A stretch of DNA of 64,000 nt from Yoonia sp. GPGPB17. Its GTDB lineage: Bacteria > Pseudomonadota > Alphaproteobacteria > Rhodobacterales > Rhodobacteraceae. Of this stretch, positions 15,284 through 61,696 are shown in pieces. The notes under the pieces are model-generated. The model searched no databases, had not been told where the DNA came from, and was given only the letters and a program-made list of their open reading frames with translations. Positions within the stretch are counted from its first letter, which is position 1. The number at the start of each line of letters is the position of its first letter. The DNA lies in contig NZ_JATACI010000002.1 of the NCBI RefSeq assembly GCF_037892195.1, positions 1,798,001-1,862,000 of the forward strand, written 5' to 3'. Position numbers and translations under genes: made by a program.

Positions 15284-16356
15284 ATGATCGATTTTCTGGT
15301 TATCGGTGGCGGCATTGCTTAAGCGTTTCCGCCGCGGCGCGCTTGTCGGAATTGGGCACCGTCACCCTGCTGGAAGGCGAAGATGCGCTGGCGTATCACA
15401 CCTCTGGCCGGTCCGCCGCGCTGTTTGAACAGAACTACGGTAAGCCCTCGACGGTCGCGCTGAACAAGGCAAGCCGTGCCTTTCACGATGCTGCCGGTGT
15501 GCTTAGCCCACGCGGGCTACTGTTGGTTGGAAGTGCAAGCACGGCTGATCATTTCGCTGCAGATGTAGGGCAGATGAAACTTGACCGGATCAGCATGCAA
15601 CAGGCCAAGGATATGGTACCTATCCTGAATGAGGATGTGTTGGATCGCGCCGCCTATCACGCGGCAGCATGGGACATTGATACCGACAAGCTGATCCAGA
15701 CCTTCGCACGCACGGCCCGCGACAATGGCGCGACCGTCAGTACAAAGGTGCAGGTCGACGATATCAAACACACTGGCACCGGTTGGGTTGTCAGCGCAGG
15801 CCCGCTGAGTTTTGAGGCGCGTCATCTGGTGAATGCAGCGGGGGCCTGGGCAGATCATGTTGCGGGTTTGGCAGGTGTCGCCACATTGGGTTTCACACCA
15901 CTGCGCCGCTCTATGGCCCGTATTCCCGCGCCCGGAGGTCATGACGTCAGTACATGGCCTATGCTGTTTGGCCCCGGGGAAGATTGGTATGCTAAGGCCG
16001 ACGCAGGTGCGCTGATCGTCTCGCCCGCAGAAGAAGACCCGACAACGCCCCATGACGCCTATGCTGATGACATGGTTTTGGCGGAAGGGCTGGCGCGGTA
16101 TGAGGCCAACGTGACCGAGCCGGTTACACGACTGCTCAGCTCTTGGGCGGGGCTGCGCACATTTGCACCGGATCGGAACCTTGTTCTGGGGCCAGATCCA
16201 CAAGAACCCAGCTTTATCTGGTGCGCAGGACAGGGTGGATACGGCATGCAATCAGCACCCGCAGCCAGCCAGTTGCTGGCTGATTTGCTCAGCGGGGCGG
16301 CATCGGACCTGCCAGTGGACGCTGTCACAGCACTCTCTCCCCAGAGGTTTGCATGA
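15284..16356 (+). CDS. FAD-dependent amine/D-amino-acid oxidoreductase (DAO family), frameshifted as read
   Basis: The protein would begin MIDFLVIGGGIAGVSAAARL, the dinucleotide-binding GxGxxG of the DAO family, and run 356 residues, with the conserved SGRSAALFEQNYG loop, the substrate-barrel region, and the closing block WCAGQGGYGMQSAPAASQ. As read, the codons for Ala-Gly are replaced by GCTTAAGC at 15317-15324, giving an in-frame TAA and a two-base shift. Removing two bases restores one frame of 357 codons. The original would be GCCGGC (finding 1). Likely reaction is oxidation of a glycine- or D-amino-acid-like substrate; exact substrate unknown. The stop overlaps the next start as ATGA. 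Confidence 0.85.
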
Positions 16357-17060
16357 CCGCACGTTTGAATGCCCAAGGGCAACCCATCGGCGACTTGGTG
16401 CCAAACTGGACCGGATGCGCGACAATCCCGCACACGGCGATGCAGGGGCGCACCTGCGAAGTGGTCCCTCTAACGACCCAGCACAGCGCTGATTTGCATA
16501 CAGCCTTTGCGCAAGATACCACCGGAACGCTTTGGACCTATATGCCCAATGGCCCCTTCTCATCAGAGGCGGACTACGCCGATTGGGTGGCCCAAGCCGT
16601 GCACAGCAAAGACCCTCTCTTTTTTGCAGTCATCGACATGTCCACTGGTAAGCCAGTTGGCGTTGCCAGCTTTCTGCGTATCCAGCCCGAGAATGGCGTG
16701 GTCGAGGTGGGATACATCACCTTTGCCCCCGCCCTGCAACGCAGGGTCATGGCGACAGAGGCCATGTATCTGATGATGAAGCGCGCACTGGGCGAATTGG
16801 GCTACCGCCGGTACGAATGGAAATGTGATGCACTGAATGCGCCATCGCGGGTCGCTGCCGCAAGGCTGGGATTTCAATATGACGGGCTGTTCAAACAAGC
16901 GCTGGTATACAAGGGGCGCAACAGGGATACAGCGTGGTTTTCGGTACTTGATCGCGATTGGCCACAGCTGGAGGCAGAGTTCGCAAGATGGCTGGACCCC
17001 AATAATTTTGATGCTAGTGGCAAACAAAAAACTACACTACGCATGAAGATGACCGATTAA
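16353..17060 (+). CDS. GNAT-family N-acetyltransferase
   Basis: A 235-residue protein of the RimJ/RimL-like GNAT group. It has the acetyl-CoA binding segment in LQRRVMATEAMYLMMKRAL (Gln/Arg-x-x-Gly/Ala type) and the following ELGYRRYEWKCDALNAPS block with the Asn that contacts the cofactor. Starts 4 bases inside the oxidoreductase gene (ATGA), so it is translationally coupled. Substrate not known; the pairing with a DAO-family oxidase suggests a role on an amine or amino acid, which is inference. Confidence 0.85.
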   Translation: MTARLNAQGQPIGDLVPNWTGCATIPHTAMQGRTCEVVPLTTQHSADLHTAFAQDTTGTLWTYMPNGPFSSEADYADWVAQAVHSKDPLFFAVIDMSTGKPVGVASFLRIQPENGVVEVGYITFAPALQRRVMATEAMYLMMKRALGELGYRRYEWKCDALNAPSRVAAARLGFQYDGLFKQALVYKGRNRDTAWFSVLDRDWPQLEAEFARWLDPNNFDASGKQKTTLRMKMTD

Positions 17061-17145
17061 TACAAGAGGCAGGTTTTCCAGACTGGTAAGCCTTCGTAAA
17101 TGCCTCAAACTAACGGCACCTGCAGTCACAAAAGAAAGCATACCG

Positions 17146-17936: not shown

Positions 17937-17955
17937 GTGCGGACCTTTCTAAAGT

Positions 17956-17981: not shown

Positions 17982-17994
17982 AAGGCTACGCCTG

Positions 17995-20490: not shown

Positions 20491-20652
20491 GATGACGACT
20501 CCTTGGCATCTTTGGCGGTAACTTGCGCGAAACCTGGCAGCGGCGATAGAACCAGCCGACCGGATACGGCGCAAAACCGACAAGGATCAGGGTTTCCCGA
20601 CTAGGCAGAACGCGCCAAACATGTTCCCTTACGTCAATTTAGGGGTAAGACG

Positions 20653-22398: not shown

Positions 22399-22929
22399 AT
22401 GGGTGCAATCGCGCATTGGGTCCGCGTGTTTCAGGTCGCAGCCTTTGCGATCTTTCTTGGCACGAGTACCGGTCACGCACAGCAGAGTGACACTGGTCCG
22501 GCCATCGGCCCTGAAACAAATCTGCCCCTTCCCCGTTACGTGTCGCTGCGCGCCAGCGAGGCCAACGTGCGCCGTGGTCCGTCACTTTCACACCGGATCG
22601 ACTGGGTCTTTCAACGACAGAGTATGCCACTGCAAGTCATTGCCGAATACGGCCATTGGCGACGTGTCATTGACCGCGATGGTCAGGGCGGCTGGGTCCA
22701 TTATAGGATGTTGTCAGGCGCACGCACCGTGGTGATTGAAGTATCTGAAACCGCGCTTCGGACGCGGCCGGAACCAGATGCACTTGAGAATGCAATGCTG
22801 GAACCCGGCGTTGTTGCCCGATTGGGCGACTGCAATCCCGAATGGTGTCAACTGACCGCCGGTGGCTATCGGGGATGGGCGCCCAAAGCGGCGCTTTGGG
22901 GCGTGGCCGACGCCGAAATCCGCGACTAG
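22399..22929 (+). CDS. Secreted bacterial SH3-domain protein
   Basis: A 176-residue periplasmic protein with signal peptide (residues 1-28, ending GHAQ). Residues 49-115 hold one SH3b domain (ASEANVRRGPSLSHRIDWV, WVHYRML) and residues 118-170 a second divergent one (ALRTRPEPD, GYRGWAPKAALWG). Such proteins bind peptidoglycan stem peptides or polysaccharide. It ends convergently with the M3 peptidase gene, sharing CTAG at 22926-22929. Confidence 0.82.
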   Translation: MGAIAHWVRVFQVAAFAIFLGTSTGHAQQSDTGPAIGPETNLPLPRYVSLRASEANVRRGPSLSHRIDWVFQRQSMPLQVIAEYGHWRRVIDRDGQGGWVHYRMLSGARTVVIEVSETALRTRPEPDALENAMLEPGVVARLGDCNPEWCQLTAGGYRGWAPKAALWGVADAEIRD

Positions 22930-24956
22930 GCCGCCTTGTCGAGACCCCGCCCTTTCAGCAGCGCCTCAACCCCGGGCAAACGCCCCCTGAACGCCTTGTA
23001 AAGCTCGGCCGCATCGACTGAACCGCCTGAAGACAAAATTGTCTTCTCCAATCGTTTTGCCGTCTCCTTGTCAAAGGGGCCGCCATTTTCCTCAAATGCA
23101 GCAAAAGCATCTGCATCCATCACCTCGGACCACATGTAGCTGTAGTATCCACTGGAATAGCCATCGCCCGCAAAGACATGGGCAAAATGCGGCGTCGCGT
23201 GGCGCATCCGAATGGCATGTGGCATTCCGATATCTTCCAGGATTTCCGCCTGACGCTGCATTGGGTCCGCCGGAGCCGGGCCATTGTGAAAGCCCAAATC
23301 AACAAGCGCCGAAGCCACATACTCCACGGTCTGGAAACCCATGTCATAGGTGGCTGCACCTAGCATCCGATTCAACAGATCCTCTGGCATCGGATCACCG
23401 GTCTCAGCATGGGTCGCGAACTCAGCAAGCACTTCCGGCACTTCCAGCCAGTGTTCATAAAGCTGACTTGGCAGTTCGACAAAATCACGTGCAACTGATG
23501 TGCCCGAAATGCTTTCGTAGGTCACATCAGACAGCATCTGATGCAGCGCATGACCGAACTCATGAAACAGCGTGCGCGCATCATCGTATGACAACAACGC
23601 AGGCTTACCTTCTTCCGGCTTGGCGAAGTTACATACATTGACAACATGAGGGCGAATGTCGCCGCTCAGCCGCTGCTGAGACCGCATCGCCGAACACCAC
23701 GCACCGGAACGCTTCGACCCACGGGCAAAATAGTCACCGATAAATACCGCAACATGTTCACCATCGCGGGTGACGTCCCACATCCGCACATCCGGGTGAT
23801 AGATAGGTCCCTCAATTGCCGCAAACTCCAGACCAAACAGGCGATTGGCGCAGGCAAATGCAGCTTCAATCATGCGATCGAGTTGCAAATAGGGCTTGAG
23901 TTCGGCTTCATCGAGGTCGTGCAACTCCTTGCGGCGTTTTTCAGAATAGAAACGCCAGTCCCAAGGTTCCAGCGGCCCGTCAAACCCATCTGCATGCAGC
24001 ATACGTTCCAAGACGGTAGCATCAGCTTCCGCCGCTGCCTTTGCTTAGGCGTCCAGACTTTCATCAAAAGATCACGCACCGCGCTGGGCGTGCTTAGCCA
24101 TTTCCGTCTCTAGCTTGAAGTCAGCGAAGGTATCATAGCCCAGCAGGTTGGCACGCTCTTCACGCAACTTCAGCGTCTCAGCGGCGATGCCACGGTTATC
24201 TGTCTTGCCGCCATTGGCACCACGCGCGCCCCACGCTTCATAGGCTTTCTTGCGCAAATCGCGTCGTTCAGAGAATTGAAGGAAGGGCACGATCAGCGAG
24301 CGGGACAGAGTGACAACAGGTCCGCCTGCCTCTTTCTCTTCGCCAGCCGCCTTTGCGGTCGCAACCACAAAATCCGGCAAACCAATCAGATCGTCTTTGC
24401 TCAGCGTCATGAACCATTCACGCTCATCGGCCAGCAGGTTCTGCGTGAACTCCGTTCCCAGCACCGACAGACGGGATTTCACGGCGCGCAAGCCCTCAGC
24501 CGCTTTGCCCTCCAGCTTTGAGCCTGAGCGCACAAAGCCACGGCGGGTCAGCATCAACACCCGCTGTTGTTCATCCGTCAGGTCCAATGCGGCACGTTGT
24601 TCCCAAACCGCCTCAACACGGGCAAAGAGCGCCTTATTCTCGGATACCTCGGACCCATAAGCGCTCAAGAGCGGTGCGAAATCGCGCTGCAATGCTTCGC
24701 GCTTGGGGTTACTATCCGCGCCAGCAACGTTGTAGAACGCGCCCAAAACGCGGCTCAGCATTTCATCTGCCCGTTCCAACGCCTCGACCGTATTCGCAAA
24801 ATCTGGCGCGTCCGCATTGTCGGCTATGGCCGCGACATTGGCGCGCGATTCTGCCAAAGCGGCATCAACGGCAGGAGCGAAATCGTCATCGGTGATCAGA
24901 TCAAAGGGCGGCAATCCAAAGGGTGTGGTCCAGTCTTGCAACAGCGGATTCGTCAT
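22926..24956 (-). CDS. M3-family oligopeptidase (peptidyl-dipeptidase Dcp/OpdA type), two frameshifts as read
   Basis: The repaired protein is about 675 residues, normal for Dcp/oligopeptidase A. N-terminal part: MTNPLLQDWTTPFGLPPF; zinc motif HEFGH in DARTLFHEFGHALH, with the downstream Glu in the ESISG region. It hydrolyses small peptides in the cytoplasm. Two short changes break the frame: GCTTAGC at 24092-24098 (one base extra, expected Met-Ala-Gly-Thr-Pro) and GCTTAGGC at 24043-24050 (two bases extra, expected Trp-Thr-Pro-Ala-Lys). Together they add three bases, so the frame is only off for about 15 codons, yet stops occur there. Both restore to GCCGGC. Single gene convergent with the SH3b gene. 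Confidence 0.88.
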
Positions 24957-25012
24957 GGGGGTTCTCCTTTGAGGAACAGATAGTGTCGCGGTGACAGAAC
25001 ACCATAGCCAAA

Positions 25013-26067
25013 CTAAGTGAACGCGAGCCCCTTACCACCGCAAACCTTACAATCCGCATGCGGTTTCACGGCAATGGTGCGCGTTTGGGCATAGAGCGCA
25101 TCATAAATCAGCAAACGACCACCAAGACCCTCGCCCGCACCGGTGATCAGTTTCACGGTCTCAACGGCCATCATCGCGCCCATCACGCCCGGCAATGGTC
25201 CGATCACCCCAGCCTCCGCGCAGGAAGGGACCAAGGAAGGGTCTGGCGCGTCGGGGAACACACAAGCGTAGCACGGTGTCCCTTTTGCTGGATCGTAGAC
25301 GCTGATTTGCCCTTCCCATTGGGTAAGGGCTGCAGCGACCAAAGGCCTCTCCGTCGCGACGGCTGTTTTATTGACTAGATAGCGGGTTTCAAAATTGTCG
25401 GTTCCGTCGAGGATCAAATCATAATCCGCAAAAAGCTCAGCCGCGATACTTGCATCCAGCCTGCGGTGGTAGGGCCGCACGGTCACAAAGGGATTCTGCG
25501 CCGTCATCGCCTCGGCCGCGGAGTGCACCTTGGGCATGCCGATGTTGCGATCAAGGTGGATGACTTGTCGCTGCAAATTGGCGTTTTCGACAACATCATC
25601 ATCGATCACACCAATCGTTCCCACACCTGCCGCCGCCAAATACTCCAGCGCGGGCGCGCCCAGACCGCTTCGGCCCCAACGACCAAGACCTTGGCATCGC
25701 GCAACGCCTTCTGGCCCGGCCCACCGACCTCGCGCAGGATGATATGGCGGGCATACCGATCCAACTCAGTCGGTGAAAAGCTATCGGACTGCGGCACAGG
25801 TGCCTGTTGCTGTTTGACGCGCGCACGTAACGCACCCAGAAACTTGCGGTACCCCCAAATCAACACGCCAAAACCAAAGAATATCGCCCAAAGCCGGGCA
25901 TCACCGCCCGTCGCCATCCGCAGCGGGTGACCATCGGGCAGGATCACATGGATCGTCATAACGCCGACCAAAAGGATCGCCATCATATTCCAGCGCACCG
26001 CGTAGGGCACCTTCATCGCCCATCCAATCACCCAAAGGGTGATGGCCATGGTGCCGACCATAATCAT
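25013..26067 (-). CDS. moeB: HesA/MoeB/ThiF-family adenylyltransferase with N-terminal membrane segments, frameshifted as read
   Basis: The repaired protein has about 350 residues. Residues 1-75 hold two or three hydrophobic segments ([43 protein letters not shown]), so the enzyme is probably tethered to the membrane. The rest is an E1-like adenylating domain: [30 protein letters not shown], and two zinc Cys pairs (CYACVF and CKVCGG). The family adenylates the C-terminal Gly-Gly of MoaD or ThiS for sulphur transfer in molybdopterin or thiamine synthesis. At 25667-25674 the read GCTTCGGC (minus strand GCCGAAGC) replaces GCCGGC and shifts the frame by two. Starts four bases inside dut. Confidence 0.85.
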
Positions 26068-26519: not shown

Positions 26520-27708
26520 GCGAGTGCCTCGGCAATACGCGCAGCCAATGTCGCCGCGACCGCGTCTTTTGTCATGCGGGGCCAACTGTCCGCGCCTTGC
26601 GCTGAAATCAACGTCACCGCATTCTCGGACCCCCCATAATGCCGGTTTCCGGGGACACATCATTCGCGACGATCCAGTCGCACTGTTTGCGCAGGCGCTT
26701 GGCGGTCGCATTCGCGATCACATCATCCGTTTCAGCCGCAAAACCAACGACGAGCTTTGGCCGCCCCGTGGTCATCTGTGACACGGTGGCAAGGATATCC
26801 GGGTTCTCTGCAAAATCGAGTTGCGGCAGGCCCAACCCGTCTTTCTTGATTTTGCTGTCGCCCGCATTGACCACATGCCAATCTGCAACGGCTGCAGCAA
26901 AAACAGCGGCATCCGCCATCCCTGCTGCCTGCACCGCATCCAGCATCTCCTGCGCTGTCTGCACTTTCACAACAGATACATCCATCGGCGGCGGCACATC
27001 TGCCGGACCGGTCACAAAAGTCACATCAGCGCCCAGCGCGGCCAAAGCTTTCGCTATGGCCGTGCCCTGCGCACCGGATGAGCGGTTTGCGATATACCGC
27101 ACCGGATCAATCGGTTCATGGGTTGGACCAGAGGTTACCACAACATGACGCCCTTTTAGCGGCCCATCGGCCAAAGCCGCATCTACGGCGGCAATGATCT
27201 CGGGCACCTCTGCCATCCGCCCCGGCCCATACTCGCCGCACGCCATATCACCTTCATTGGGTCCGACAACCAAGATGCCGTCACCCAGCAACGCCGCCAG
27301 ATTGCGCTGAGTCGCCGGATGATCCCACATGCGCACATTCATCGAGGGCGCAATCAGCACACGTTTGTCGGTGGCCAAGAGTAACGTTGATGCCAGATCG
27401 TTTGCATGCCCATTTGCCATCTTCGCCATCAAGTCCGCTGTTGCTGGGGCGACAACAATCAGATCAGCCGCGCGGGACAATTCGATATGTCCCATCTCAG
27501 CTTCATCAGTGAGATTGAACAGATCCTGATAGATTTTGGACGCGGATAGGGCCGCCAAACTGAGCGGGGTCACAAACTCTGATCCGGCTTTGGTCAGCAC
27601 CGGCGTGACCTGCGCGCCCTGCTCGCGCAAACGACGCACGAGGTCTAACGATTTGAAGGCGGCAATGCCGCCTCCTACGATTAAGAGAATATGCTTATTG
27701 GCCAGCAT
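26516..27708 (-). CDS. coaBC: Bifunctional phosphopantothenoylcysteine decarboxylase/synthetase, frameshifted near the end as read
   Basis: Coenzyme A synthesis enzyme, about 397 residues after repair. The FMN-dependent decarboxylase half (1-185) shows the catalytic His in [11 protein letters not shown], the substrate clamp [11 protein letters not shown] and the Cys of [10 protein letters not shown]. The synthetase half has [20 protein letters not shown] and the Lys loop of AVADWHV. Reading stops early because a C run at 26630-26635 (plus strand) holds six instead of the seven bases needed for Met-Gly-Gly-Ser-Glu-Asn. With one base added the frame continues to a TGA at 26518 and ends in AARIAEALA, overlapping dut. 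CoaBC is essential, so a real break is unlikely. Confidence 0.9.
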
Positions 27709-29887: not shown

Positions 29888-29900
29888 CTAGGGTTAATCC

Positions 29901-30591
29901 ATGGCTTATGAACTCTATATTGGTGATCGCACTTTCAGCAGTTGGTCTTTGCGAGGCTGGCTGATGCTGGAAAAATTTGGACTACCCTATCAGACGCATA
30001 TGGTCGGGCTTTATGCGGGTACCATGAAGGCTGATTTGGCTCATCTTAGACCGGCCCGCACAGTTCCGGTCATGCAGACAAGCGATGGTCATGTCCTGAC
30101 CGACAGTCTTGCGATGGCCGAAACGCTGGTGGAAAACCACCCTCAGGCTTAGCCTTTACCCAGCAGGGCCCGGCGCTCGTGCGCTTGCCAGATCCATGAC
30201 CGCAGAGATGCACAGCGGTTTTCAAGCCTTGCGCGAAGCCTGCCCCATGATGCTTAGCTTTTGTTGGGAAGGCTTCGAAGCTTCGCAGGCTGTGCAAGAC
30301 GACTTGCTGAGAATAGAAGACCTCTGGTCGCTCGCCCGGGCACGCCACGGGGCAAATGGGCCTTGGCTCTTTGGTGAATACTCACTTGCGGATGTATTCT
30401 ACGCACCTGTTGCGATGCGCATCACGGCTTACAAACTGTCTGTCAGTGATGAATCGCAGGCTTATGTTTCCGCGCATCTCAGCGATCCTGCATTTTTGGC
30501 CTGGCGCAAAGCTGCAATGGAAGATGTGTATGAACCATTCCCATACGAACTGCCGCTCGCACGCAGCTCATGGCCCGGTGATACAAATTAA
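29901..30591 (+). CDS. Glutathione S-transferase family protein, frameshifted as read
   Basis: About 229 residues after repair. The thioredoxin-like N-terminal domain begins YELYIGDRTFSSWSLRGWLM with the Ser-x-x-Ser-x-Arg glutathione loop, then RTVPVMQTSDGHVLTDSLAM. The helical C-terminal domain includes WLFGEYSLADVFYAPVAMRI, the usual N-capping box. The Gln-Ala-Gly-Leu at codon 82-85 is written GCTTAGC at 30147-30153, giving a TAG and a one-base shift; GCCGGC restores it. Substrate unknown. The ribosome site is weak, and the short hairpin lies just upstream. Confidence 0.85.
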
Positions 30592-35662: not shown

Positions 35663-38438
35663 CCCGACTTCACCGCTAGACGACGGTGCGCCGGACGGTT
35701 TGATCTGTCCGGCGTCTGCTATTTTTGATGCCGACGTGGTGATCGCACAGATCGATACCGCCGTTGTAGAGGCAACGTCCGAAAAGGCCATTCGCGCGGC
35801 AACCGTGGGTGCGCTCGCTGCCGCACGTTCCGCGGGCATGCTGCAGATCGCCACGGCTTTCCGCGCGCAACCATTTGCGTCACGCCCCACAACACGTGCG
35901 TATAGCTGGCTGACCGATCAAATCGTCAAAACGGTTCTGAAAGTTGCGACCGACCGCTTGCACCCGCTACCAAACCCCACTGAAAGTGAGCGGCTTTCGC
36001 TGATTGCGGTGGGCGGCTACGGGCGCGGAGAAATGGCCCCGCAATCAGACGTCGATTTGTTGTTCCTGACGCCCTACAAGATCACGCCCTGGGCTGAGAG
36101 TGTGATCGAGTCGATGCTCTACATGCTGTGGGACCTCAAGCTAAAGGTTGGCCACGCCAGCCGTACCGTCAAAGACTGCCTTCGGCTGGCCAGGGAAGAT
36201 TATACGATCCGCACCTCGCTGGTAGAGTATCGGCATTTAGCGGGAGATGCCGCGCTCGCGACAGAACTGGGTGACCGGCTTTGGTCAGAGCTGTTCAAAT
36301 CTACCGCGAGCGATTTCATCGAAGCAAAACTGGAAGAACGCGCGACCCGCCACCGCAAACAGGGCGGGCAGCGTTATGTGGTTGAACCCAACGTCAAAGA
36401 GGGCAAAGGCGGGTTGCGCGACCTGCAATCGCTTTTCTGGATCAGCAAATACGTCAATGGCGTCAAAGATGCGGCTGAACTGGTCAACCTCGGGGTCTTT
36501 GCGTCGGAAGAATTCGAAACCTTTGTCACAGCCGAGGATTTCCTTTGGGCGGTGCGCTGTCACTTGCATCTTATTGCTGGTTAGCCGACCGACCAGTTGA
36601 CGTTCGATATGCAGGTCGAAGTGGCGTCGGCGATGGGGTATCTTGATCACGGCGGCAGGCGCGGGGTCGAGCATTTCATGCAGGCCTATTTCCGGCAGGC
36701 GACTCACGTCGGAGAGTTGACACGTATTTTTCTGACGGCACTGGAAGCAAGCCACACCAAACAAGAACCTATGCTGGCGCGGTTGCTGAAGCGGCGCAAG
36801 AAGGCCAAACCGCCCTACGCCATCAAACAGAACCGGCTCACCGTCGCAAACGAAAAGGCGTTTCTGGCTGACAAACTGAATATCCTTCGCCTGTTTGAAG
36901 AGGCGCTGCGCACTGGCACGCTGTTACACCCCGACGCGATGCGCCTGATCTCGGCAAATCTCGACCAGATTGATGCCGATATGCGCGACGACAAGGAGGC
37001 ACGCCGCATCTTCCTTGATCTGCTGCTCAAGCACGGCAATCCCGAACGGGCTTTGCGGCGGATGAATGAACTGGGCGTCTTAGCCGCGTTCATTCCTGAA
37101 TTCGCACCGATTGTCGCGATGATGCAATTCAATATGTACCACCACTTCACAGTGGACGAACATACGATTCAATGCATCAGCACGCTTGCCCAGATCGAGC
37201 GCAATGAGTTGATTGAGGAACTGCCAGTCGTGTCTGGCATTCTGGAGCGTGGCGTGAATCGCAAGGTCCTTTATGTGGCGCTACTGCTGCATGACATTGG
37301 CAAAGGGCGCGACGAAGATCACTCTGTCCTTGGTGCACAGATCGCGCGCAAGGTTGCGCCACGACTGGGGCTGAACAAGAAGGAGTGCGAGACGGTAGAA
37401 TGGCTGATCCGCTATCATCTGCTACTCTCCGATGTGGCCCAGAAGCGCGATATCTCTGAACCCCGCACCGTGCGCGGTTTTGCCAAGGCCGTGAAATCTG
37501 TCGAACGGTTGGATTTGCTGACCGCGCTGACCGTCTGCGATATTCGCGGGGTTGGGCCAGGGACATGGAACAACTGGAAGGCGGTCCTAATCCGCAACCT
37601 CTACAAGGCCACAAAATCCGCGTTGGAGACCGGTCTGGAAGACCTCAACCGTGAAACCCGCGAGGCCGAGGCCAAGCGTGCCTTACGTACGGCACTATCC
37701 GATTGGGACAACAAGACGCTGAAAGCCGAAATCGGGCGACACTATGGGCCTTATTGGCAAGGCCTTCCACTGGCGGCGCAGACGGTCTTTGCAACACTTC
37801 TGCGCGATATTGCTGATGACGAGATCAAAATCGACCTGATGTTGGACGAAGACCGCGATGCGACGCGGGCCTGCTTCGCCATGGTCGATCATCCGGGGCT
37901 TTTCAGTCGTATGACGGGCGCACTGGCATTGGTGGGGGCAAACGTGGTGGATGCGCGCACTTATACGTCTAACGACGGTTATGCTACCGCCGTATTCTGG
38001 GTTCAGGACAATGACGGCAACCCATATGAAGCTGCGCGCCTACCGCGCCTGCGCCAAATGATTGAGCGGACCTTGCGGGGCGAAGTCGTTGCGAAAGATG
38101 CACTCAAAGACAAAGACAAGATCAAGAAACGCGAACGCGCCTTCAAGGTTCCAACAAATATCAGCTTCGACAATGAAGGGTCAGAAATCTATACGATTAT
38201 CGAGGTCGATACCCGCGACCGTCCCGGACTTCTCTACGATTTGACACGAACACTTGCACATAATCACGTCTACATCGCCTCAGCCGTCATTGCGACTTAT
38301 GGGGAACAGGTCGTCGATACATTCTATGTAAAAGACATTGTCGGATTGAAGTATCACTCCGAGGCCAAACGTGCCGGGCTAGAACGCAAACTGCGCGCAG
38401 CGATTGCACAGGGTGCAGAACGCGCGGTGTCAGGATGA
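35622..38438 (+). CDS. glnD: [Protein-PII] uridylyltransferase/uridylyl-removing enzyme, in-frame stop as read
   Basis: A 938-residue nitrogen sensor that uridylylates or deuridylylates PII proteins according to glutamine. Order: nucleotidyltransferase motif GGYGRGEMAPQSDVDLLF at residues 131-148, the HD hydrolase motif LLHDIGKGRDEDHS near residue 555, and two C-terminal ACT domains. A TAG at codon 321 (36582-36584) interrupts HLIAG-R-PTDQLTF; the six bases 36580-36585 read GTTAGC where GCCGGC would give Gly-Arg-Pro. The frame is otherwise continuous to 38438. The TTG start at 35622 overlaps the lipoprotein gene; a GTG at 35646 after AAGAAG is an equally good start. Confidence 0.9.
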
Positions 38439-38465
38439 AGGTCCGCAATTTTTAAAAAAATTGGG

Positions 38466-38487
38466 CCAGAGTTTTCCAAAACTCTGG
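38466..38487. repeat. Perfect inverted repeat between glnD and murJ
   Basis: CCAGAGTTTT and AAAACTCTGG pair with only CC between, preceded by TTTTTAAAAAAA. On the plus strand no T run follows, but on the minus strand the stem is followed by CCCAATTTTTTT, the form of an intrinsic terminator pointing leftward, although both neighbours run rightward. It lies 10 bases before the murJ start. Confidence 0.7.
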
Positions 38488-38497
38488 GGTGCAACGC

Positions 38498-40061
38498 ATG
38501 AAACCCATCCGATTGATGGCAGGCTTCTTCACGGTCGGCATCTGGACACTGCTAAGCCGCATAATGGGCTTTGTGCGCGATATCATGATTGCAGCGTTTC
38601 TTGGCACCGGACCCGTGGCCGAAGCCTTTCTGATCGCCTTTTCCCTGCCGAACCTGTTTCGACGGTTCTTTGCCGAAGGCGCATTCAACATGGCTTTCGT
38701 GCCTATGTTTTCCAAGAAAGTCGAAGGCGGCGATAACCCACACCGTTTTGCGCAAGATGCCTTCGTCGGCCTTGGCGGCATCCTGACCGTTTTCACCGTG
38801 CTTGGCATCATCTTCATGCTAGGCCCTCGTAACGCTGATGGCCAGCGGTTTTCTCGGAACCGAGCGTTTTGATCTGGCTGTATATTATGGGCGCATCGCT
38901 TTCCCCTATATCTTGTTCATTTCGCTAACCGCACTGTTGTCTGGCGTGTTAAATGCCACCGGCCGCTTTACGGCAGCAGCAGCAGCGCCGATCCTTTTGA
39001 ACGTCGTCTTTGTTGCTACGCTGGCGATTTTTGGCGTGACCTGTGACTGCACCGGGTCGGAAGGACAGAACATCATCGGTCAATCGCTGGCATTTGCTGT
39101 ACCGCTGGCAGGTATCGCTCAATTGGCTGTTGTCTGGTTCGCGGCAAATAGGGCCGGATATGCTTTGCGCGTCGGCATGCCGAAGATGACACCTGAGTTG
39201 AAACGGCTCGCCATTATCGCAGCCCCCGCAGCCCTTGCAGGTGGCGTGGTACAGATCAACTTGTTGGTGGGCAGGCAGGTCGCCAGTTTCTTTGATGGCG
39301 CTGTCGCTTGGTTAAGCTATGCGGACAGGCTTTATCAATTGCCTTTGGGTGTTGTGGGTATTGCGATTGGTGTCGTGCTCTTGCCTGACCTGTCGCGACG
39401 TTTACGCGCGGGCGATGACGCTGGCGGGAGGGACGCGTTCAATCGCGCTTCCGAGATCAGCCTTGCGCTGACCGTCCCGGCCTCGGTCGCCCTGCTTACA
39501 ATCCCGCTGCCACTGGTCAGCGTGCTGTTCGAACGGGGTGCCTTTACCAGCGACGATACAGCAGCTACGGCGTTGGCTGTTGCTATCTATGGGTTGGGCC
39601 TACCTGCATTTGTGCTGCAAAAGACGCTCCAGCCGCTGTTCTTTGCCCGTGAGGACACAAAACGCCCCTTTTACTACGCACTGATTGCGATGGTGTTGAA
39701 CGCCGCTCTGGCGATTGGTCTAGCCCCTGTCATTGGCTTTGCAGCGGCGGCAATCGGAACTTCGCTAACAGGCTGGGCAATGGTGCTACTTTTGATACGT
39801 GGGACACGCACCATGGGCGATGCGGGCAAGTTCGATGGCCGGTTCAAGCGCCGTCTGGGCCGGATTGTTCTCGCCTCGGGCAGTATGGGGTGCATCCTAG
39901 TGCTGACCTCAACAACGATGACGCCGTTCTTTGGTCCTGGCATTCAGCGCTATCTGGCATTGCTCGTATTGATCGCGATTGGCATCGTCAGCTATTTTGG
40001 GATCGGCCATTTGATCGGCGCTTTTAAACTCTCCGAATTTCGGCGCAACTTGCGTGGTTAG
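38498..40061 (+). CDS. murJ: Lipid II flippase MurJ, frameshifted as read
   Basis: About 520 residues and 14 membrane helices after repair. It flips lipid II across the inner membrane for peptidoglycan synthesis and is normally essential. N-terminal signature: GFFTVGIWTLLSRIMGFVRD, PNLFRRFFAEGAFNMAFVP; later LPLVSVLFERGAF. At 38818-38824 the read GCTAGGC adds one base and breaks Phe-Met-Pro-Ala-Leu-Val; GCCGGC restores it, and 1563 coding bases remain, a multiple of three. ATG 38498 is the usual start MKPIRLMAG. The stop overlaps that of the rhomboid gene (TTAG). Confidence 0.92.
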
Positions 40062-43570: not shown

Positions 43571-44026
43571 ATGCGTAAATTCATGGTCGTTTTGGATGAT
43601 AGCCGCGAATGCCTGAATGCCATGCGCTTTGCTGCGATGCGGGCATCGCATACAGGTGGCGGCGTTGCTGTTCTTTCCATTATTCCGCCGGATGAGTTTA
43701 ACCACTGGATCGGCGTAGGTGAAATCATGCGCGCCGAGGCGCGCGAGCGGATCGAAGTGCATTATGAGGTTTTCGCCAAGTGGATGCGCGACAAGCAAAA
43801 CGTCGATCCAGAGCTAATCATTCGTGAAGGCGAACCCCTGAATGAGATTATCGCCCATGTGAATGAAGACCCTGAAATTGGTGTGCTGGTGTTAGGCGCT
43901 GGCGATGACAGCAAAGGACCGGGCCCGTTGGTCACACAACTCAGCAAGCAATCGGGCAGCCTGCCGATTCCGATCACCATTGTACCGGGCGATTTGTCCA
44001 AAGAACGGCTCGAAGCGATCACCTAA
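43571..44026 (+). CDS. Universal stress protein A family
   Basis: A 151-residue UspA-fold protein: MRKFMVVLDDSRECLNAM at the start with the Asp that binds ATP, VLVLGAGDDSKGPGPL as the glycine-rich phosphate loop and ITIVPGDL at the end. It has an ATP-binding-type loop. Followed by the CPBP gene with one-base overlap (TAATG), so the pair is cotranscribed. Confidence 0.88.
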   Translation: MRKFMVVLDDSRECLNAMRFAAMRASHTGGGVAVLSIIPPDEFNHWIGVGEIMRAEARERIEVHYEVFAKWMRDKQNVDPELIIREGEPLNEIIAHVNEDPEIGVLVLGAGDDSKGPGPLVTQLSKQSGSLPIPITIVPGDLSKERLEAIT

Positions 44027-44639
44027 TGGATCGCACTGCAGCGATGGCGATTGCAGCCGCAGTTCCCGTTCTTGCCGCAGCGTTTTACCTTCTCACAAGA
44101 CTGTTGCCACCATTCTGGGGGTACGGTGCTGCGCTGGCGTTTTACTGGGTCTGTGTCCTGATCCCGCTCATCTTGTGGCGCGGCACATGGCGGCATATGA
44201 AATTGCGGCCTGTTCTGCCAAGATCATGGCTCACGTTTCTAAACATTGGCATGATTGCTTAGGCGTCGCAATCACCGCCCTCTTTGCGTTACTGGCGCAC
44301 CCAATTCCGCTTTGGGTCGGTGGGGTCATTGCGCTGGGCGCATTGATGAATGGCACCCTGGAAGAGGTGTTCTGGCGCGGCACCGTCCTACTTGATGACG
44401 CCACACCAGCCCAACAAATCGGCCAACTTGGGCTCTTTACCGGTTGGCATGTTGCCTTGCTCTTCGCGACTGGTGTGGTGGTGACGGGTGGGGCCGCAGG
44501 TGTCTTGGGTGGTGCGGCAATTGGCGGCGCACTCTGGACATTGGCACGCGTGCAAACTGGCAGCATCGGTTTCGGCGCGATATGTCATGTTGCACTTAAT
44601 CTAGTTGCCTTCACTGAATTGGCGACACACAACCTGTGA
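44026..44639 (+). CDS. CPBP-family intramembrane protease (Abi-like), frameshifted as read
   Basis: About 203 residues and six or more membrane helices after repair. The motif EEVFWRG (EExxxR) with the downstream HVALLF and CHVALN histidines is the glutamic-protease core of the CAAX-protease/bacteriocin-processing family. The Ile-Ala-Gly-Val codons are written GCTTAGGC at 44257-44264, giving a TAG and a two-base shift; GCCGGC restores 204 codons. Target protein unknown. Coupled to the UspA gene by TAATG. Confidence 0.8.
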
Positions 44640-44656
44640 TAGCTGCTACCGACTAG

Positions 44657-44673: not shown

Positions 44674-44676
44674 CCC

Positions 44677-47463: not shown

Positions 47464-47489
47464 GGCGACGCTTAGGCCAACTGATAGAG

Positions 47490-47543: not shown

Positions 47544-49082
47544 ATGCCCGACACAGCCCCCGCCATTGAGTTGAAAGGAATATCCAAAGCCTTTGGCCCT
47601 GTTCAAGCGAACAAAGATATTTCCATTCGCGTCATGCCCGGCACAATCCACGGGGTCATTGGCGAGAACGGTGTAAGCAAATCGACACTGATGTCTATTT
47701 TGTACGGGTTTTATAAGGCTGACGCGGGTGAAATCTTCATCTCGGGTCAGAAAACGGTCATTCCAGATAGCCAGGCCGCCATTGCGGCAGGCATCGGCAT
47801 GGTGTTTCAGCACTTCAAGCTGGTCGAGAACTTCACGGTGCTCGAAAACGTCGTTCTTGGCGCAGAAGACAGCGGTCTATTGCGCCCTTCTTTGGCACGT
47901 GCGCGCCGCGAGCTGAAAAGCCTTGCAGAGGAATACGAGCTGAACGTGGATCCTGATGCGGTGATCCAGGATGTTGGTGTGGGGATGCAGCAGCGTGTCG
48001 AAATCCTCAAAGCGCTTTACCGCAAAGCCGATATCCTGATTCTGGACGAACCCACCGGCGTTTTGACACCTGCCGAGGCTGACCACTTGTTCCGCATTCT
48101 TGAGAACCTCAAGCGCGAGGGTAAAACCATTATCCTGATCACGCATAAACTGCGCGAGATCATGGAAATCACCGATACGGTCAGCGTCATGCGCCGCGGC
48201 GAGATGACTGCGACGGTGAAAACATCAGACACCAGTCCAGCCGAGCTGGCCGAGCTTATGGTAGGGCGTAAGGTTCTATTGCGTGTCGATAAGGCCCCCG
48301 CCCAGATCGGCAAGAAAATTCTCGAAGTCAAAGACTTAAACGTCACCGACAGTAAGGGCGTGCATCGCCTGAAAGGCGTCAGTTTTGACGTCCACGCTGG
48401 CGAAATTCTTGGCATTGCCGGGGTGGCGGGCAATGGCCAATCAGAGTTGTTGGAAGTCTTGGGCGGCTATGAAAAGGCCACCGGCTCGGTCAAACTGAAT
48501 GGCGAAGAGATCGACCTGACGGGTGCAAAGTCAGATGGCCAAAGCCGCCGTGCACGCGGGATCAGCCATGTACCAGAGGACAGGCAGCGCGAAGGTTTGA
48601 TCATGGATTTCCAAGCGTGGGAAAACACCGCCTTCGGCTATCATCATGACAACCGCTACCAGCGCTCAAAGCTGCTGATGAACAACGCGGCGATCCGCCA
48701 GGACACGGCTGAAAAGATGGAGCGCTTTGACGTCCGCCCCCCTGATCCAAGCCTTGCCGCCAAGAGCTTTTCCGGCGGCAACCAGCAGAAGATCGTGCTG
48801 GCGCGCGAGATCGAACGCAACCCTGATTTGCTGCTGGTTGGTCAACCGACACGCGGCGTTGATATCGGTGCGATCGAGTTTATTCACCAGCAAATTGTTG
48901 CACTTAGGGATCAGGGCAAGGCAATTTTGCTTGTTTCTGTCGAGTTGGAAGAGATTTTATCGCTCTCGGACCGCATCGCCGTTATGTTTGACGGAAAAAT
49001 GATGGGCGAGCGGATGCCTGATAAAACAGATGAAAAAGAACTCGGACTGCTAATGGCGGGCATGAGCGGGGAGGCAGCGTAA
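47544..49082 (+). CDS. Nucleoside ABC transporter ATP-binding protein, damaged Walker A as read
   Basis: A 512-residue protein with two ABC ATPase cassettes, the type used by BMP-linked (nucleoside) importers. The first Walker A reads GENGVSKST where the family has GENGAGKST; the codons GTA AGC (47673-47678) stand where GCC GGC is expected, so this is the same motif damage as elsewhere but in frame. The second cassette has GIAGVAGNGQSELLE and SFSGGNQQKIVLARE. Literal Ser at the Walker glycine would impair ATP binding. Ends one base into the permease (TAATG). Confidence 0.92.
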   Translation: MPDTAPAIELKGISKAFGPVQANKDISIRVMPGTIHGVIGENGVSKSTLMSILYGFYKADAGEIFISGQKTVIPDSQAAIAAGIGMVFQHFKLVENFTVLENVVLGAEDSGLLRPSLARARRELKSLAEEYELNVDPDAVIQDVGVGMQQRVEILKALYRKADILILDEPTGVLTPAEADHLFRILENLKREGKTIILITHKLREIMEITDTVSVMRRGEMTATVKTSDTSPAELAELMVGRKVLLRVDKAPAQIGKKILEVKDLNVTDSKGVHRLKGVSFDVHAGEILGIAGVAGNGQSELLEVLGGYEKATGSVKLNGEEIDLTGAKSDGQSRRARGISHVPEDRQREGLIMDFQAWENTAFGYHHDNRYQRSKLLMNNAAIRQDTAEKMERFDVRPPDPSLAAKSFSGGNQQKIVLAREIERNPDLLLVGQPTRGVDIGAIEFIHQQIVALRDQGKAILLVSVELEEILSLSDRIAVMFDGKMMGERMPDKTDEKELGLLMAGMSGEAA

Positions 49083-50187
49083 TGGATGTGATGCCAAAGT
49101 GGGCGGATGTCATCCTGATCCCTCTGATCTCGATCCTGCTGGCCGCAATCCTGTCTGCCTTGGTGATCCTTGCCATCGGTGAAAACCCTTGGGAAGCCCT
49201 CAAACTGATGGTCAGTGGCGCTTTGGGGTCCACTTATGGCTGGGGCTATACGCTCTATTACGCAACGAACTTCATCTTCACCGGTCTCGCTGTTTCCATC
49301 GCGTTTCATGCACGGTTGTTCAACATCGGTGGCGAAGGCCAGGCGCTGATCGGTGGCCTTGGCGTTGCAATCATCTGCCTCTTCATTCCTTGGCCGCATT
49401 GGTCATTGGCCTTGTTGGGTGCAGCCATTGGTGCCGCAATTTTTGGTGCGGCATGGGCCGCGATCCCTGCATTCCTGCAAGCCAAGCGCGGCAGCCACAT
49501 CGTGATCACCACGATTATGTTCAACTTCATCGCAGCGGCAGTCCTCAACTACTTCCTGATCGGCGCGTTGAAGGCGCCCGGTATGGAGCCTGCGACCGCG
49601 AAGTTCCCCGAAGCGACACACCTGCCGTCCTTTCAGGATATGTTCAATTTCGGCGAAACCACATTCTTTCGTGGTGCGCCCGCCAACATCACATTTTTCG
49701 TCGCGCTCGCAGCTTGCGTGTTCCTCTGGGCCCTGATCTGGAAAACACGTCTTGGCTATGAAATCCGGTCCTTCGGGCATTCGGAATCGGCTGCAAAATA
49801 CGCGGGCATCAGCCCGACAAAAATTATCATGGTTGCCATGCTTATCTCAGGCGCTCTTGCTTAAGCATGATGGCCATCAACAACGTACAGGGCGAGGCCG
49901 AACGGCTGGTCCTGAACGCAGTGGAGGGGGCGGGCTTTATCGGCATCGCCGTCGCACTGATGGGGCGCAGCCACCCTTTCGGAGTGTTGCTGGCCGCCCT
50001 TCTTTTCGGCTTTCTATATCAAGGCGGCGCAGAACTCGCCCTATGGACGTCGATCCCCCGTGAGCTGATTATCGTAATACAGGCATTGGTAATCCTCTTC
50101 ACGGGCGCACTGGACAATATGGTGCGCATGCCGCTCGAGCGGCTATTCCTATCAATGAGGAGAGCAAAAAATGGCAGGACCGTTTAA
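49082..50187 (+). CDS. Nucleoside ABC transporter permease (first), frameshifted as read
   Basis: About 367 residues and 8-10 helices after repair, of the BMP-associated (RbsC-like) permease family, with FNIGGEGQALIGGLG and EIRSFGHSESAAKYAGIS as conserved loops. At 49859-49866 the read GCTTAAGC (expected Leu-Ala-Gly-Met-Met) adds two bases and gives a TAA; GCCGGC restores it, and the protein continues INNVQGEAERLVLNAVEGAG. Overlaps the next small gene by 17 bases. Confidence 0.9.
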
Positions 50188-50590: not shown

Positions 50591-51559
50591 ATGGACTTCG
50601 CGACCCTCTTGCAGATGCTGGACGCAACACTGCGTCTGGCGACCCCGCTTCTTCTGGCTTGTCTGGCAGGCCTGTATTCCGAGCGGGCCGGTATCTTTGA
50701 TATCGGGCTAGAGGGCAAGATGTTGGCAGCCGCCTTCCTTTCCGCAGCCGTCGCCGCCGTTTCCGGCAACGTTTGGCTCGGGCTTTTCGCGGGTATTGGC
50801 GCGTCGATGATGCTGTCAGCAGTGCATGGGCTGGCGTCAATCACTTTCCGGGGTAACCAGCTGATCTCGGGTGTGGCAATCAACTTTTTGGCGGCAGGTT
50901 TGACCGTTGTCATCGCGCAAAGCTGGTTCGCCCAAGGCGGGCGGACACCGCAATTGACAGGTGACGCCCGTTTCAACCCGATTGATCTGCCCTTCGCTGA
51001 GGCGCTGCAAAATGTGCCCATCCTTGGACCAATCTACTACGAACTCATTTCCGGGCACACGATCCTTGTCTATGTCGCCCTTTTGATGGTGCCCCTGACA
51101 TGGTGGATCCTGTTCCGCACCCGCTTTGGCCTGCGCCTGCGCGCGGTCGGTGAAAACCCGGCTGCCGTTGATACGGCGGGCGTGTCGGTCATTTGGCTGC
51201 GCTTTGCCGCCGTGGGCATTTGCGGCATCCTTTGCGGCATCGCCGGGGCCTACCTCGCGACAGCCCTGCAAGCTGGTTTCGTCAAGGACATGAGCGCAGG
51301 ACGCGGCTTTATCGCCCTCGCCGCCCTGATATTCGCCAAATGGCGGCCATGGTACGCGCTTTATGCCTGCCTGCTCTTTGGCTTTCTGCAGGCAATGTCA
51401 CTGCGTCCAGATGTGATTGAAGGTGTCGTTGGCTTCCAGGTGAATGGTCAGTTCCTTGACGTACTGCCCTATATCCTGACAGTCGTTATTCTGGCTGGTT
51501 TCGTCGGCAAGGCGATCCCGCCACGCGCCGGGGGCGAGCCTTATGTCAAAGAACGCTAA
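50591..51559 (+). CDS. Nucleoside ABC transporter permease (second)
   Basis: A 322-residue membrane protein of the same family as the first permease (LLACLAGLYSERAGIFDIGLEGKML, ENPAAVDTAGVSVIWLRF). The loop GENPAAVDTAGVS is the coupling loop contacting the ATPase. It partners the permease at 49082. Ends 17 bases inside the phosphorylase gene. Intact frame. Confidence 0.93.
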   Translation: MDFATLLQMLDATLRLATPLLLACLAGLYSERAGIFDIGLEGKMLAAAFLSAAVAAVSGNVWLGLFAGIGASMMLSAVHGLASITFRGNQLISGVAINFLAAGLTVVIAQSWFAQGGRTPQLTGDARFNPIDLPFAEALQNVPILGPIYYELISGHTILVYVALLMVPLTWWILFRTRFGLRLRAVGENPAAVDTAGVSVIWLRFAAVGICGILCGIAGAYLATALQAGFVKDMSAGRGFIALAALIFAKWRPWYALYACLLFGFLQAMSLRPDVIEGVVGFQVNGQFLDVLPYILTVVILAGFVGKAIPPRAGGEPYVKER

Positions 51560-56793: not shown

Positions 56794-58085
56794 TTAGCGG
56801 TCTCGGGATGCCTCCAGAGTATCTTCAAACGTGCGCAAGCCCATTTTTGGTGCTTGCACCAGCACGGACATATTGCCGGGCTTGTGTTCGTTCTTACGCA
56901 TTTTGGTATGGGCTGCGGGAATAGCACCCCACTCAAAACACTCTGACATACACGGATCAAGGCGCTGCTCCAGCATTAGCTTGTTGGCAGCACTCGCTTG
57001 GGCGAGGTGCGCAAAGTGACTGCCTTGCAGGCGCTTTTGGTGCATCCACATGTAGCGCACGTCAAAGGTACAATTGAAACCAGTCGTGCCTGCACAAATC
57101 ACCACCATACCGCCTTTTTTGCAAACCAATGAGGACACCGGGAAGGTTGCTTCACCAGGGTGTTCAAACACCATGTCGACGTTCACGCCTTTGCCAGTGA
57201 TTTCCCAGATCGCCTTGCCGAACTTGCGGGCCTCTTTCAGCCATGTGTTGTATTCGGGCGTATTCACCGTGGGCAACTGGCCCCAACAGTTAAGGTCATT
57301 GCGGTTGATCACGCCCTTCGCACCCAACGACATGACAAACTCACGCTTGCTTTCGTCACTGATCACGCCAATGGCGTTTGCACCTGCCGTATTGATCAAC
57401 TGGATCGCATAAGAGCCCAGGCCACCAGACGCGCCCCAAACCAAAACGTTCTGGCCCGGCTTCAAGTCATGCGGTTCATGGCCGAACAGCATGCGATATG
57501 CAGTGGCGAGCGTCAGCGTGTAACATGCGCTTTCTTCCCATGTCAGGTGCTGTGGGCGATGCATCAACTGCTGGGACTGCACGCAGGTGAACTGGGCGAA
57601 AGACCCATCTGGCGTCTCATACCCCCAAATGCGCTGGCTTTCGGAATACATCGGATCGCCGCCATTGCAGTGCTCATCATCGCCGTCATCCTGATTGCAG
57701 TGAATGACGACTTCATCACCCACTTTCCAGCGCTTAACCTTGTCGCCTACGGCCCAGACGATGCCTGCCGCATCAGACCCGGCAATATGGAATTCGGCCT
57801 TGTGCACATCAAACGGGCTGATCGGTATACCCAGTCCTGCCCAGACACCGTTGTAGTTCACGCGGCCGCCATCACGAGGACCAGAACCTCATTGCTGTCA
57901 GGCTTGGGTACATCTACGACCTCAAGCTGGAACGCCTTATCAGGCTCGCCGTGACGTCCGCGACGGATGGTCCAGGCATGCATCTGTGCGGGCACATGGC
58001 CCATCGGTGGCATCTCGCCCACTTCATAGAGGTCTTTTTCTGGTGCCGTGTATCCAGCTTGGTCGAGGGCCATCTCAGTCTCCAT
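56794..58085 (-). CDS. ccr: Crotonyl-CoA carboxylase/reductase, frameshifted as read
   Basis: A 430-residue medium-chain dehydrogenase that reductively carboxylates crotonyl-CoA to ethylmalonyl-CoA with NADPH and CO2, the marker enzyme of the ethylmalonyl-CoA pathway for acetyl-CoA assimilation. Sections: ALDQAGYTAPEKDLYEVGEM, DAAGIVWAVGDKV, HCNQDDGDDEHCNGGD and ASGGLGSYAIQ (Rossmann). The Met-Ala-Ala-Gly-Val codons around 57862-57866 are short by one base (GCCGC instead of GCCGGC on the minus strand), giving TGA; adding it gives 431 codons. The upstream part contains METEMALDQ as start. Confidence 0.95.
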
Positions 58086-58192
58086 TACTCAGGTTCCAGT
58101 GTTGCCGCACCGCAGAATCGGTCGCGTTGGAACCTAAATAAGCGACAGTAAAGTAACTTTGCAACCATTATAAGGATAATTTTGTAATTTAA

Positions 58193-59590: not shown

Positions 59591-59727
59591 AGTTTGAGGG
59601 TGACAGGGAACGCCGGATAGGTAAATCCCATCATGCCGCAACGCAGCGAATTGACAGCGCCATAAAATGTCCGATAAACAGCAACTCGTGTAATTAAATT
59701 GCGCATACTGATTCAGGAGAGCCGCAA

Positions 59728-61696
59728 ATGTCGCAGTCGCAGAAAGATCGCCCCTGGTTGTTCCGGACCTATGCCGGTCACTCGACCGCGGCGGCGTCGA
59801 ACGCGCTCTACCGTGGTAACCTTGCCAAGGGGCAAACCGGTCTTTCCGTCGCTTTTGATCTGCCAACGCAGACGGGTTACGACAGCGATCACATCTTGGC
59901 GAAAGGTGAGGTTGGCAAGGTGGGCGTCCCCGTCAGCCACTTGGGTGACATGCGCGCCCTGTTCAATAACATCCCGCTTGATCAGATGAACACCTCGATG
60001 ACGATCAACGCGACCGCCCCATGGCTCCTGTCGCTCTACATCGCGGTTGCAGAAGAACAGGGTGCAGATATCCGCGCCCTGCAAGGCACCGTTCAAAACG
60101 ATATCATCAAGGAATACCTGTCGCGCGGCACCTACATCTGCCCGCCCGAGCCATCCCTCCGCATGATCACCGACGTAGCGGCATACACCCGCGAACATCT
60201 GCCCAAATGGAATCCGATGAACGTGTGCTCCTATCACCTGCAAGAAGCGGGGGCCACGCCAGAAGAAGAACTCGCCTTTGCGTTGGCGACAGCGACAGCG
60301 GTATTGGATAACCTGAAAGGCAAAGTTGCCGCCAAAGACTTTCCAGCGATGGTGGGGCGCATTTCATTCTTTGTGAACAGCCGGCATTCGTTTTGTCACA
60401 GAGCTTTGCAAAATGCGGGCCTTCGTTGAATTGTGGGACGAAATTTGCGCCAATCGCTACGGCGTTGAAGATGCCAAATACCGCCGTTTCCGCTATGGCG
60501 TTCAGGTCAATTCGCTTGGGCTGACCGAGCAGCAACCCGAAAACAACGTTTACCGCATTCTTCTGGAAACACTCGCCGTCACGTTGTCCAAGAACTCGCG
60601 GGCCCGTGCTGTCCAATTGCCCGCATGGAATGAAGCGCTCGGCCTGCCCCGCCCTTGGGACCAGCAATGGTCCCTGCGCATGCAGCAGATTTTGGCCTAT
60701 GAAACGGATTTGCTGGAATTCGATGACCTTTTTGACGGCAATCCCGCAATTGATCGCAAAGTAAATGAACTCAAAGACGGTGCACGCGCTGAATTGGCGC
60801 AAATCGACGGGATGGGTGGCGCGGTCGGCGCGATTGCGTATATGAAATCGCGATTGGTTGAAAGCAATGCCGCCCGGATCGGTGGCATTGAAAAGGGCGA
60901 CACAACCGTCGTTGGCGTCAACAAATGGCAGACCGGGGAACCTTCGCCACTGACCGCAGGCGATGATGCCATCATGGTTTCTGATCCCGAGGCAGAGGCT
61001 GATCAATTGCACCGCCTGAATGCATGGAAATCCGACCGCGACAGTGCAGCTGTCAACGAAGCGCTCGCGGCGCTACGTGCGGCAGCAAAAGATGGCAGCA
61101 ATATCATGCCGCCGTCTATCGCCTGTGCCCGTGCGGGTGTGACAACGGGTGAATGGTCGGACGTGATCCGAAACGTCTTTGGCCAGTATCGCGCACCCAC
61201 GGGCGTCAGCAGCAATCCGTCCAACCGGACTGAGGGGCTTGAAGACCTGCGCGAGCAGGTCGATCTGGTCAGCACGGCACTTGGCCGCCGATTGAAATTC
61301 CTGGTCGGCAAGCCGGGGCTGGACGGTCATTCAAATGGGGCCGAACAGATCGCGGCGCGGGCGCGCGACTGTGGCATGGATATCGATTACGAAGGTATTC
61401 GTTTGACGCCAGAAGAAATCGTCACGGCTGCCCAAAATGGTGATTGCCACGTCATTGGCCTGTCCATTCTGTCAGGATCACACATCCCATTGGTCCGGGA
61501 TGTAATGAACAGACTGCGCGCCGCGGGTATTGCCCATATTCCCGTAATTGCCGGTGGCATTATTCCCGATGATGACGCAAATGAATTGCGCGCCATGGGT
61601 GTCGCGCAGGTTTACACGCCGAAAGATTTTGAGTTGAATAAAATCATGAGTGATATCGTGACACTGGTCGACCCGCGGTCAGTCGCAGCCGAATAG
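59728..61696 (+). CDS. ecm: Ethylmalonyl-CoA mutase, frameshifted as read
   Basis: About 655 residues after repair. It is a B12-dependent mutase that turns ethylmalonyl-CoA into methylsuccinyl-CoA, the step after Ccr. The N-terminal TIM-barrel region holds YAGHSTAAASNALYRGNL and GLSVAFDLPTQTGYDSD; the C-terminal B12 domain has GKPGLDGHSNGAEQIA, where DxHxxG places the cobalt-ligating His. A one-base A inserted before GCCGGC (60379-60385) breaks Val-Asn-Ala-Gly-Ile-Arg; removing it gives 656 codons. ATG 59728 has AGGAG eight bases upstream. Divergent from plsB. Confidence 0.94.

Follow-up and report, generated by a model that had tools for sequence, protein, structure and literature searches.

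Probable consensus errors at putatively methylated GCCGGC sites in the genome assembly of a marine Yoonia/Loktanella relative

Coding disruptions clustered in a 64 kb stretch of the genome of a marine Yoonia/Loktanella relative are very probably consensus errors that arose at methylated GCCGGC sites in a long-read assembly, most likely a nanopore one, and the broken genes are probably intact in the living cell. The original prediction of consensus error at a modified GCCGGC is supported. A suitable methyltransferase is encoded in the genome, and an altered 23S rRNA gene, homopolymer shortening and a strand bias point the same way; cellular methylation, the sequencing platform and the way in which the reads went wrong are inferred. 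Outside the analyzed stretch, the cell carries the genes of a type II restriction-modification pair, and in the proposed mechanism the methyltransferase of this pair would mark GCCGGC. A basecaller without knowledge of this mark would then give reads, and subsequently a consensus, in which the hexamer appears as GCTTAAGC, GCTTAGGC, GCTTAGC and similar strings, with about four in five GCCGGC sites affected.

The host genome comprises 4.21 Mb in 5 contigs, of which contig C2 accounts for 3.84 Mb, and the whole 64 kb stretch analyzed, from now on referred to as the window, corresponds to C2:1798001-1862000. Based on record titles, the named relatives of a GlnD fragment are headed by Yoonia and Loktanella, marine Rhodobacteraceae. 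Genome completeness is 96.23%, a value probably lowered by the assembly errors.

Disrupted genes in the window

Window sites were aligned with five syntenic congeners (G002, G003, G004, G009 and G011), synteny spanning 54-60 kb of the window, and the net length change was scored per congener. Nine of the 12 sites listed in the original prediction are length changes peculiar to the window, and eight of them (15317, 24043, 24092, 25667, 38818, 49859, 57862 and 60379) show the same net change in 5/5 congeners. At four of these the net change is -2: GCTTAAGC (15317..15324, plus strand) near the start of a FAD-dependent oxidoreductase gene (~15290-16356; PF01266 in the G011 copy), GCTTAGGC (24043..24050, minus strand) in a broken peptidase M3 gene (22929-25007; PF01432 in the G003 copy), GCTTCGGC (25667..25674, minus strand) in a broken ThiF-family gene (25016-26067; PF00899 in the G011 copy) and GCTTAAGC (49859..49866, plus strand) in a broken ABC transporter permease gene (49082-50184; PF02653). 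A net change of -1 is found at GCTTAGC (24092..24098, minus strand), the second break of the peptidase M3 gene, where G003 aligns differently in a narrower frame, at GCTAGGC (38818..38824, plus strand) in a broken murJ (38456-40055; PF03023 in the G011 copy) and in a broken methylmalonyl-CoA mutase-family gene (59728-61693; PF01642), in which an intact GCCGGC follows one extra base (60379..60385, plus strand). GCGGC (57862..57866, minus strand), one base short with a net change of +1, lies in a broken zinc-type alcohol dehydrogenase-family gene (56797-58088; PF00107/PF08240). The ninth length change, GCTTAGC in a broken glutathione S-transferase-like gene (29898-30588; 30147..30153, plus strand), scores -1 in four congeners and -2 in one, at a flank identity of only 0.68.

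The proposal that all 12 disruptions represent a lost GCCGGC is confirmed in part. In addition to the nine length changes, frames change at GCTTAGGC (44257..44264, plus strand) in a CPBP/Rce1-like protease gene (~44026-44640), a site with no congener alignment, the two sides of which lie in different frames and the second piece of which matches PF02517 (E 3.7e-7). Sites 36580 and 47673 are instead same-length substitutions (net 0 in 5/5), and the hexamer is retained at 60379. GTTAGC (36580..36585, plus strand) creates a stop and leaves glnD broken (35622-38435; PF08335 in the G011 copy). GTAAGC (47673..47678, plus strand) lies in the Walker A motif of an ABC ATPase gene (47544-49082; PF00005), where it is a missense change in an intact frame; by our own translation, relatives keep Gly-Ala-Gly-Lys at this position.

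All strings were found where they had been placed, except that intergenic site 62158 should read 62157. The suggestion that this site and intergenic site 47470 might be further errors did not survive comparison with congeners, as both look natural: at 47470, G011, G003 and G004 carry same-length octamers one letter off, and GCTTAGGC at 62157-62164 is identical in G011 together with its surroundings. The latter octamer is possibly a conserved regulatory site. The second intact GCCGGC of the window (12010..12015) is undisturbed (net 0 in 5/5). GCCGGC itself is carried by 4/5 congeners at 49859 and by one congener each at 24092 and 60379, the other sites showing synonymous neighbors of GCCGGC or other letters. 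Because congeners lack GCCGGC at most window sites, a lost hexamer is presumed there.

Testing gene integrity, 9 of 53 homology-supported window genes were found to be broken, eight of them at listed sites and the ninth at a G run close to 7070, compared with 0 broken of 53-55 in each of the five congeners, where 2-3 genes per congener were absent or partial. With G011 as reference, the 53 supported genes comprised 41 intact, 10 flagged and 2 absent or partial genes, and with G003, the 51 supported genes comprised 39, 10 and 2, respectively. One flag (50591-51556) was dropped as false, since this paralogous permease pair is flagged in every control too with full single matches; both permease-pair flags were likewise dropped in each control congener. 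The break at 15317 escaped this test, which judged by length, since the DAO gene there gains a long frame from an upstream start in another reading. With a looser scan, frameshift clusters peculiar to the window numbered 18 over 56.0 kb, compared with 2-10 in each congener region (53-57 kb); judged by eye rather than by formal sorting, many of these clusters are visibly intergenic. In a second region of 20 kb (C2:0.90-0.92 Mb), 2/14 genes (2/16 with another reference) are broken, with GCTTAAGC at one break and a C run at the other. In six congeners the sole flag comes from a gene truncated where its stretch ends, and 7/14 genes are absent in G006. Three of the four GCTTARGC strings of this region lie away from any flagged break. 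That glnD, murJ and further genes seem to be lost should not be taken as biology.

Genome-wide loss of GCCGGC and octamer excess

The whole host genome contains 166 copies of GCCGGC and 1225 of CGGCCG, a ratio of 0.14, which is the lowest among 45 family genomes counted and is followed by 0.26 in G073. In 12 congeners, GCCGGC occurs 242-1456 times at ratios of 0.37-0.96. Taking the median density in the five closest congeners and rounded genome sizes, about 870 copies would be expected in the host, of which about one in five remain; the hexamer is depleted genome-wide, and unbroken copies, which would have spoken against the original prediction if common, are not common in the assembly. When 456 kb of the host were compared with 328.5 kb from five congeners, using the 6-mers that occur 40 or more times in the latter, depletion was strongest for GCCGGC (0.11, the next being 0.45). 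Against a Markov expectation, it is the lowest of the palindromes expected often enough, at 0.06 in the host and 0.45 in congeners. The window holds 2 copies, compared with 40.7 by dinucleotide shuffles and about 14 by congener density (73 in 328.5 kb), the latter being the fairer expectation. Among 68 congener GCCGGC sites read in the window, 62 show ordinary substitutions, 5 a change in length and 1 no change. Unbiased 6- to 8-mer enrichment gave a mixed picture, with CTTAAGCA near the top (17 vs 0) among many others, which probably reflect gene content. Overall, the errors concentrate on one short motif in one genome, the pattern of modification-mediated nanopore assembly error.

The octamers GCTTAAGC and GCTTAGGC are in excess in the host genome, the plus strand of which contains 166 copies of GCTTAAGC, 65 of GCTTAGGC and 29 of GCCTAAGC. 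GCTTARGC occurs 231 and 195 times on the two strands, compared with 17-94 in 39 congeners. Genome-wide, GCTTAGGC is found 65 times in forward and 29 times in reverse orientation (p 0.0003). On the chromosome the counts are 60 and 25, with quarters of 16:5, 13:7, 16:7 and 15:6 all leaning in the same direction and the first quarter alone reaching significance by itself. It should be noted that not every octamer can be an error, since GCTTAGGC is found in-frame inside the methyltransferase gene discussed below (L117:9922).

This strand bias bears on the alternative that the changes are true mutations, with selection against a NaeI-type enzyme, methylcytosine deamination or faulty cut repair having removed GCCGGC from the lineage. 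Such a history would agree with the shortfall of palindromes such as GCCGGC against Markov expectation in congeners and with the presence of a NaeI-family gene in the host. However, a replication-linked process should switch between chromosome arms, so the uniform strand of GCTTAGGC through all quarters speaks against mutation, whereas a consensus step running in contig direction need not switch. Further, two-base insertions in glnD-, murJ- and 23S-type genes would be harmful, and homopolymer shortenings occur alongside. Taken with the natural controls described below, we consider true mutation very improbable. Counting against consensus error are the 166 intact GCCGGC copies, for which flanking bases offer little distinction: a comparison of 26 intact and 25 altered sites gave a weak trend, 15/26 intact sites coming from stretches chosen for holding one. 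On the same side stand the rarity of GCCGGC itself in congeners at most window sites, the significance of the strand bias in a single chromosome quarter, the normal GCCGGC of G007 despite its methyltransferase, and, as detailed below, undiminished long A/T runs and a 23S deletion off the motif.

Restriction-modification genes, natural controls and precedents

NaeI recognizes GCCGGC. A NaeI-family endonuclease gene with an open frame is located about a megabase from the window (C2:2813438-2814322, minus strand; PF09126, E 1.1e-39; PDB 1ev7, E 2.2e-19) and is adjoined by an open cytosine-5 methyltransferase gene identified by homology (C2:2814395-2815351, minus strand), so that a putative NaeI-type restriction-modification system is encoded. 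The search for a GCCGGC methyltransferase of the NaeI/NgoMIV class suggested by the original prediction thus succeeded, the assignment being by homology. The methyltransferase shares 61% identity across 308 residues, the region between the catalytic motifs among them, with a gonococcal enzyme of the NgoMIV/NgoAIV type, the gene of which adjoins NgoMIV (E 7.2e-149); it thereby differs in partner, which is of NaeI type in the host and of NgoMIV type in the gonococcus. It is also 68% identical to a methyltransferase encoded beside a NaeI-family gene on plasmid plas1 of Loktanella salsilacus, where the pairing is of the NaeI type, as in the host. NgoMIV cuts GCCGGC, according to a review that prints the NaeI site as GCC|CCG (PMC4081073), and m.NgoAIV methylates GCCGGC, with most such sites in gonococcal pilin genes called as 5mC by nanopore sequencing in a preprint (PMC12871193). 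By this relationship, the host methyltransferase would mark GCCGGC in the cell. The endonuclease resembles the NaeI family (PF09126, PDB 1ev7/1iaw) by Pfam and PDB match but is distant and of putative specificity. Its family match of 136 bits falls in the lower-scoring group (G214, 133), most others scoring 170-210. What was predicted from 64 kb is thereby matched by two enzyme genes lying a megabase off, and public assemblies would allow a wide trial of the principle that a missing palindrome and its misreadings in a finished assembly can reveal a methyltransferase target without raw data.

SIR2-domain and HerA-type genes with strong PADLOC matches adjoin the NaeI-type pair (L117:10602-13486, C2 ~2815602-2818486), forming a small defense cluster. 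The second of the two C5 methyltransferase genes found in the host genome, one being chromosomal, is located on the 37 kb contig C4 (L122:10649-12782) and forms another type II pair with an endonuclease matching the PADLOC type II model. This pair gave no PDB sequence match. Relatives of the C4 endonuclease are found in 66 plasmid records, mostly from Klebsiella and Salmonella and mostly mobilizable plasmids. The C4 methyltransferase is the less likely source of a GCCGGC mark, as only about a third of its residues match the gonococcal enzyme in a 202-residue alignment and a 64% identical relative in G046 goes with a GCCGGC ratio of 0.59.

NaeI-family matches occur in 1/56 genus genomes, the host alone, and in 24/394 family genomes. 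The other 23 NaeI-positive family genomes, compared irrespective of methyltransferase and platform and including G116 with merely a 76-residue NaeI-family piece, show GCCGGC ratios of 0.40-1.03, while G073 at 0.26 is NaeI-negative. In G007, genes for an NgoMIV-type endonuclease (E 5.5e-98) and for a methyltransferase sharing 63% identity with that of the host lie side by side (L093:1486-3299), and this genome has a GCCGGC ratio of 0.96 with GCTTARGC counts of 31 and 36. The NaeI-positive genomes and G007 argue against true mutation and leave restriction avoidance unsupported as the whole cause. As G007 combines such a pair with normal GCCGGC, a GCCGGC system alone neither depletes the word nor spoils an assembly; read chemistry must therefore matter, and what this comparison, made irrespective of platform, probably lacks is the sequencing method. 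As a separate observation, one methyltransferase family serves two endonuclease families, NaeI-type and NgoMIV-type.

The host case is an artefact of a known kind. In a 2019 benchmark run with default models, about 70% of the consensus errors fell in Dcm motifs (PMC6591954), assemblies of Listeria were corrupted at other motifs (PMC10687267) and strand-dependent read errors at methylated sites have been described in a multicentre study (PMC11389150). As presented there, the Listeria GCAGC/GCTGG errors, those at Dcm sites and those of the multicentre study are likewise strain-specific, located at one short motif and linked to a methyltransferase, whereas here the motif is GCCGGC and is known from the assembly alone. 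The Listeria report (PMC10687267) places its stress on mismatches, while the host errors often change length and thus break frames. Literature on nanopore sequencing, GCCGGC and methylation, covered mainly through titles and the starts of abstracts, contained no report of GCCGGC as a source of assembly errors. That the mark is a further modified cytosine alien to the basecaller, not plain 5-methylcytosine, is unlikely, though such a base would explain the severe misreading of about four in five sites with inserted letters.

The 23S rRNA gene and homopolymers

One 23S match was reported per genome. All five congeners have GCCGGC within TGTGAAGCCGGCCTGTGAG of the 23S rRNA gene, where the host reads TGTGAAGCTTAACCTGTGAG. 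A G run of five in 5/5 congeners is four long in the host, with two more shortened runs located upstream of the gene when compared with the 4 congeners aligning there. Similar changes are found in the window: a G-run frameshift in the broken pectate-lyase-like gene (6185-8493; 7060..7073, minus strand; net +1 in 5/5; PF12708), a C-run change near the start of a DAO/GCV_T gene (20493..20502, minus strand; net +1 in four congeners and +2 in one; families in the G011 copy) and a C-run change in a Flavoprotein/DFP gene (26614-27708; 26622..26633, minus strand; net +1 in 5/5; families in the G011 copy). Some frameshifts are homopolymer errors, and the shortenings are consistent with nanopore reads. 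Counted by run length, long A/T runs are in no shortage, while G/C runs of at least 7 are fewer, at about 9 vs 36 per Mb, based on few counts. The 23S change, the shortened homopolymers and the uneven use of assembly strands together favor error over mutation.

Another alternative is that platform or polisher erred at GCCGGC through sequence context, no base mark being involved, and the plain homopolymer errors of the assembly speak for it. However, 0/44 other counted genomes are as low in GCCGGC, the nearest being G073, again irrespective of platform, and the genome affected is the sole NaeI-family-positive one of its genus. Three nanopore-assembled Yoonia genomes are, moreover, reported as 99.97-99.99% complete (PMC11482539), well above the host value. 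A context error is for these reasons about as improbable as true mutation, and error at a methylated GCCGGC is the preferred reading.

Two further length differences lie off the motif. The 23S gene carries a two-base deletion relative to 5/5 congeners (L185:2865), perhaps another type of error, and an A run (8464-8470) close to where the pectate-lyase-like gene starts differs in length from 4/5 congeners, a difference that the stricter scan did not flag.
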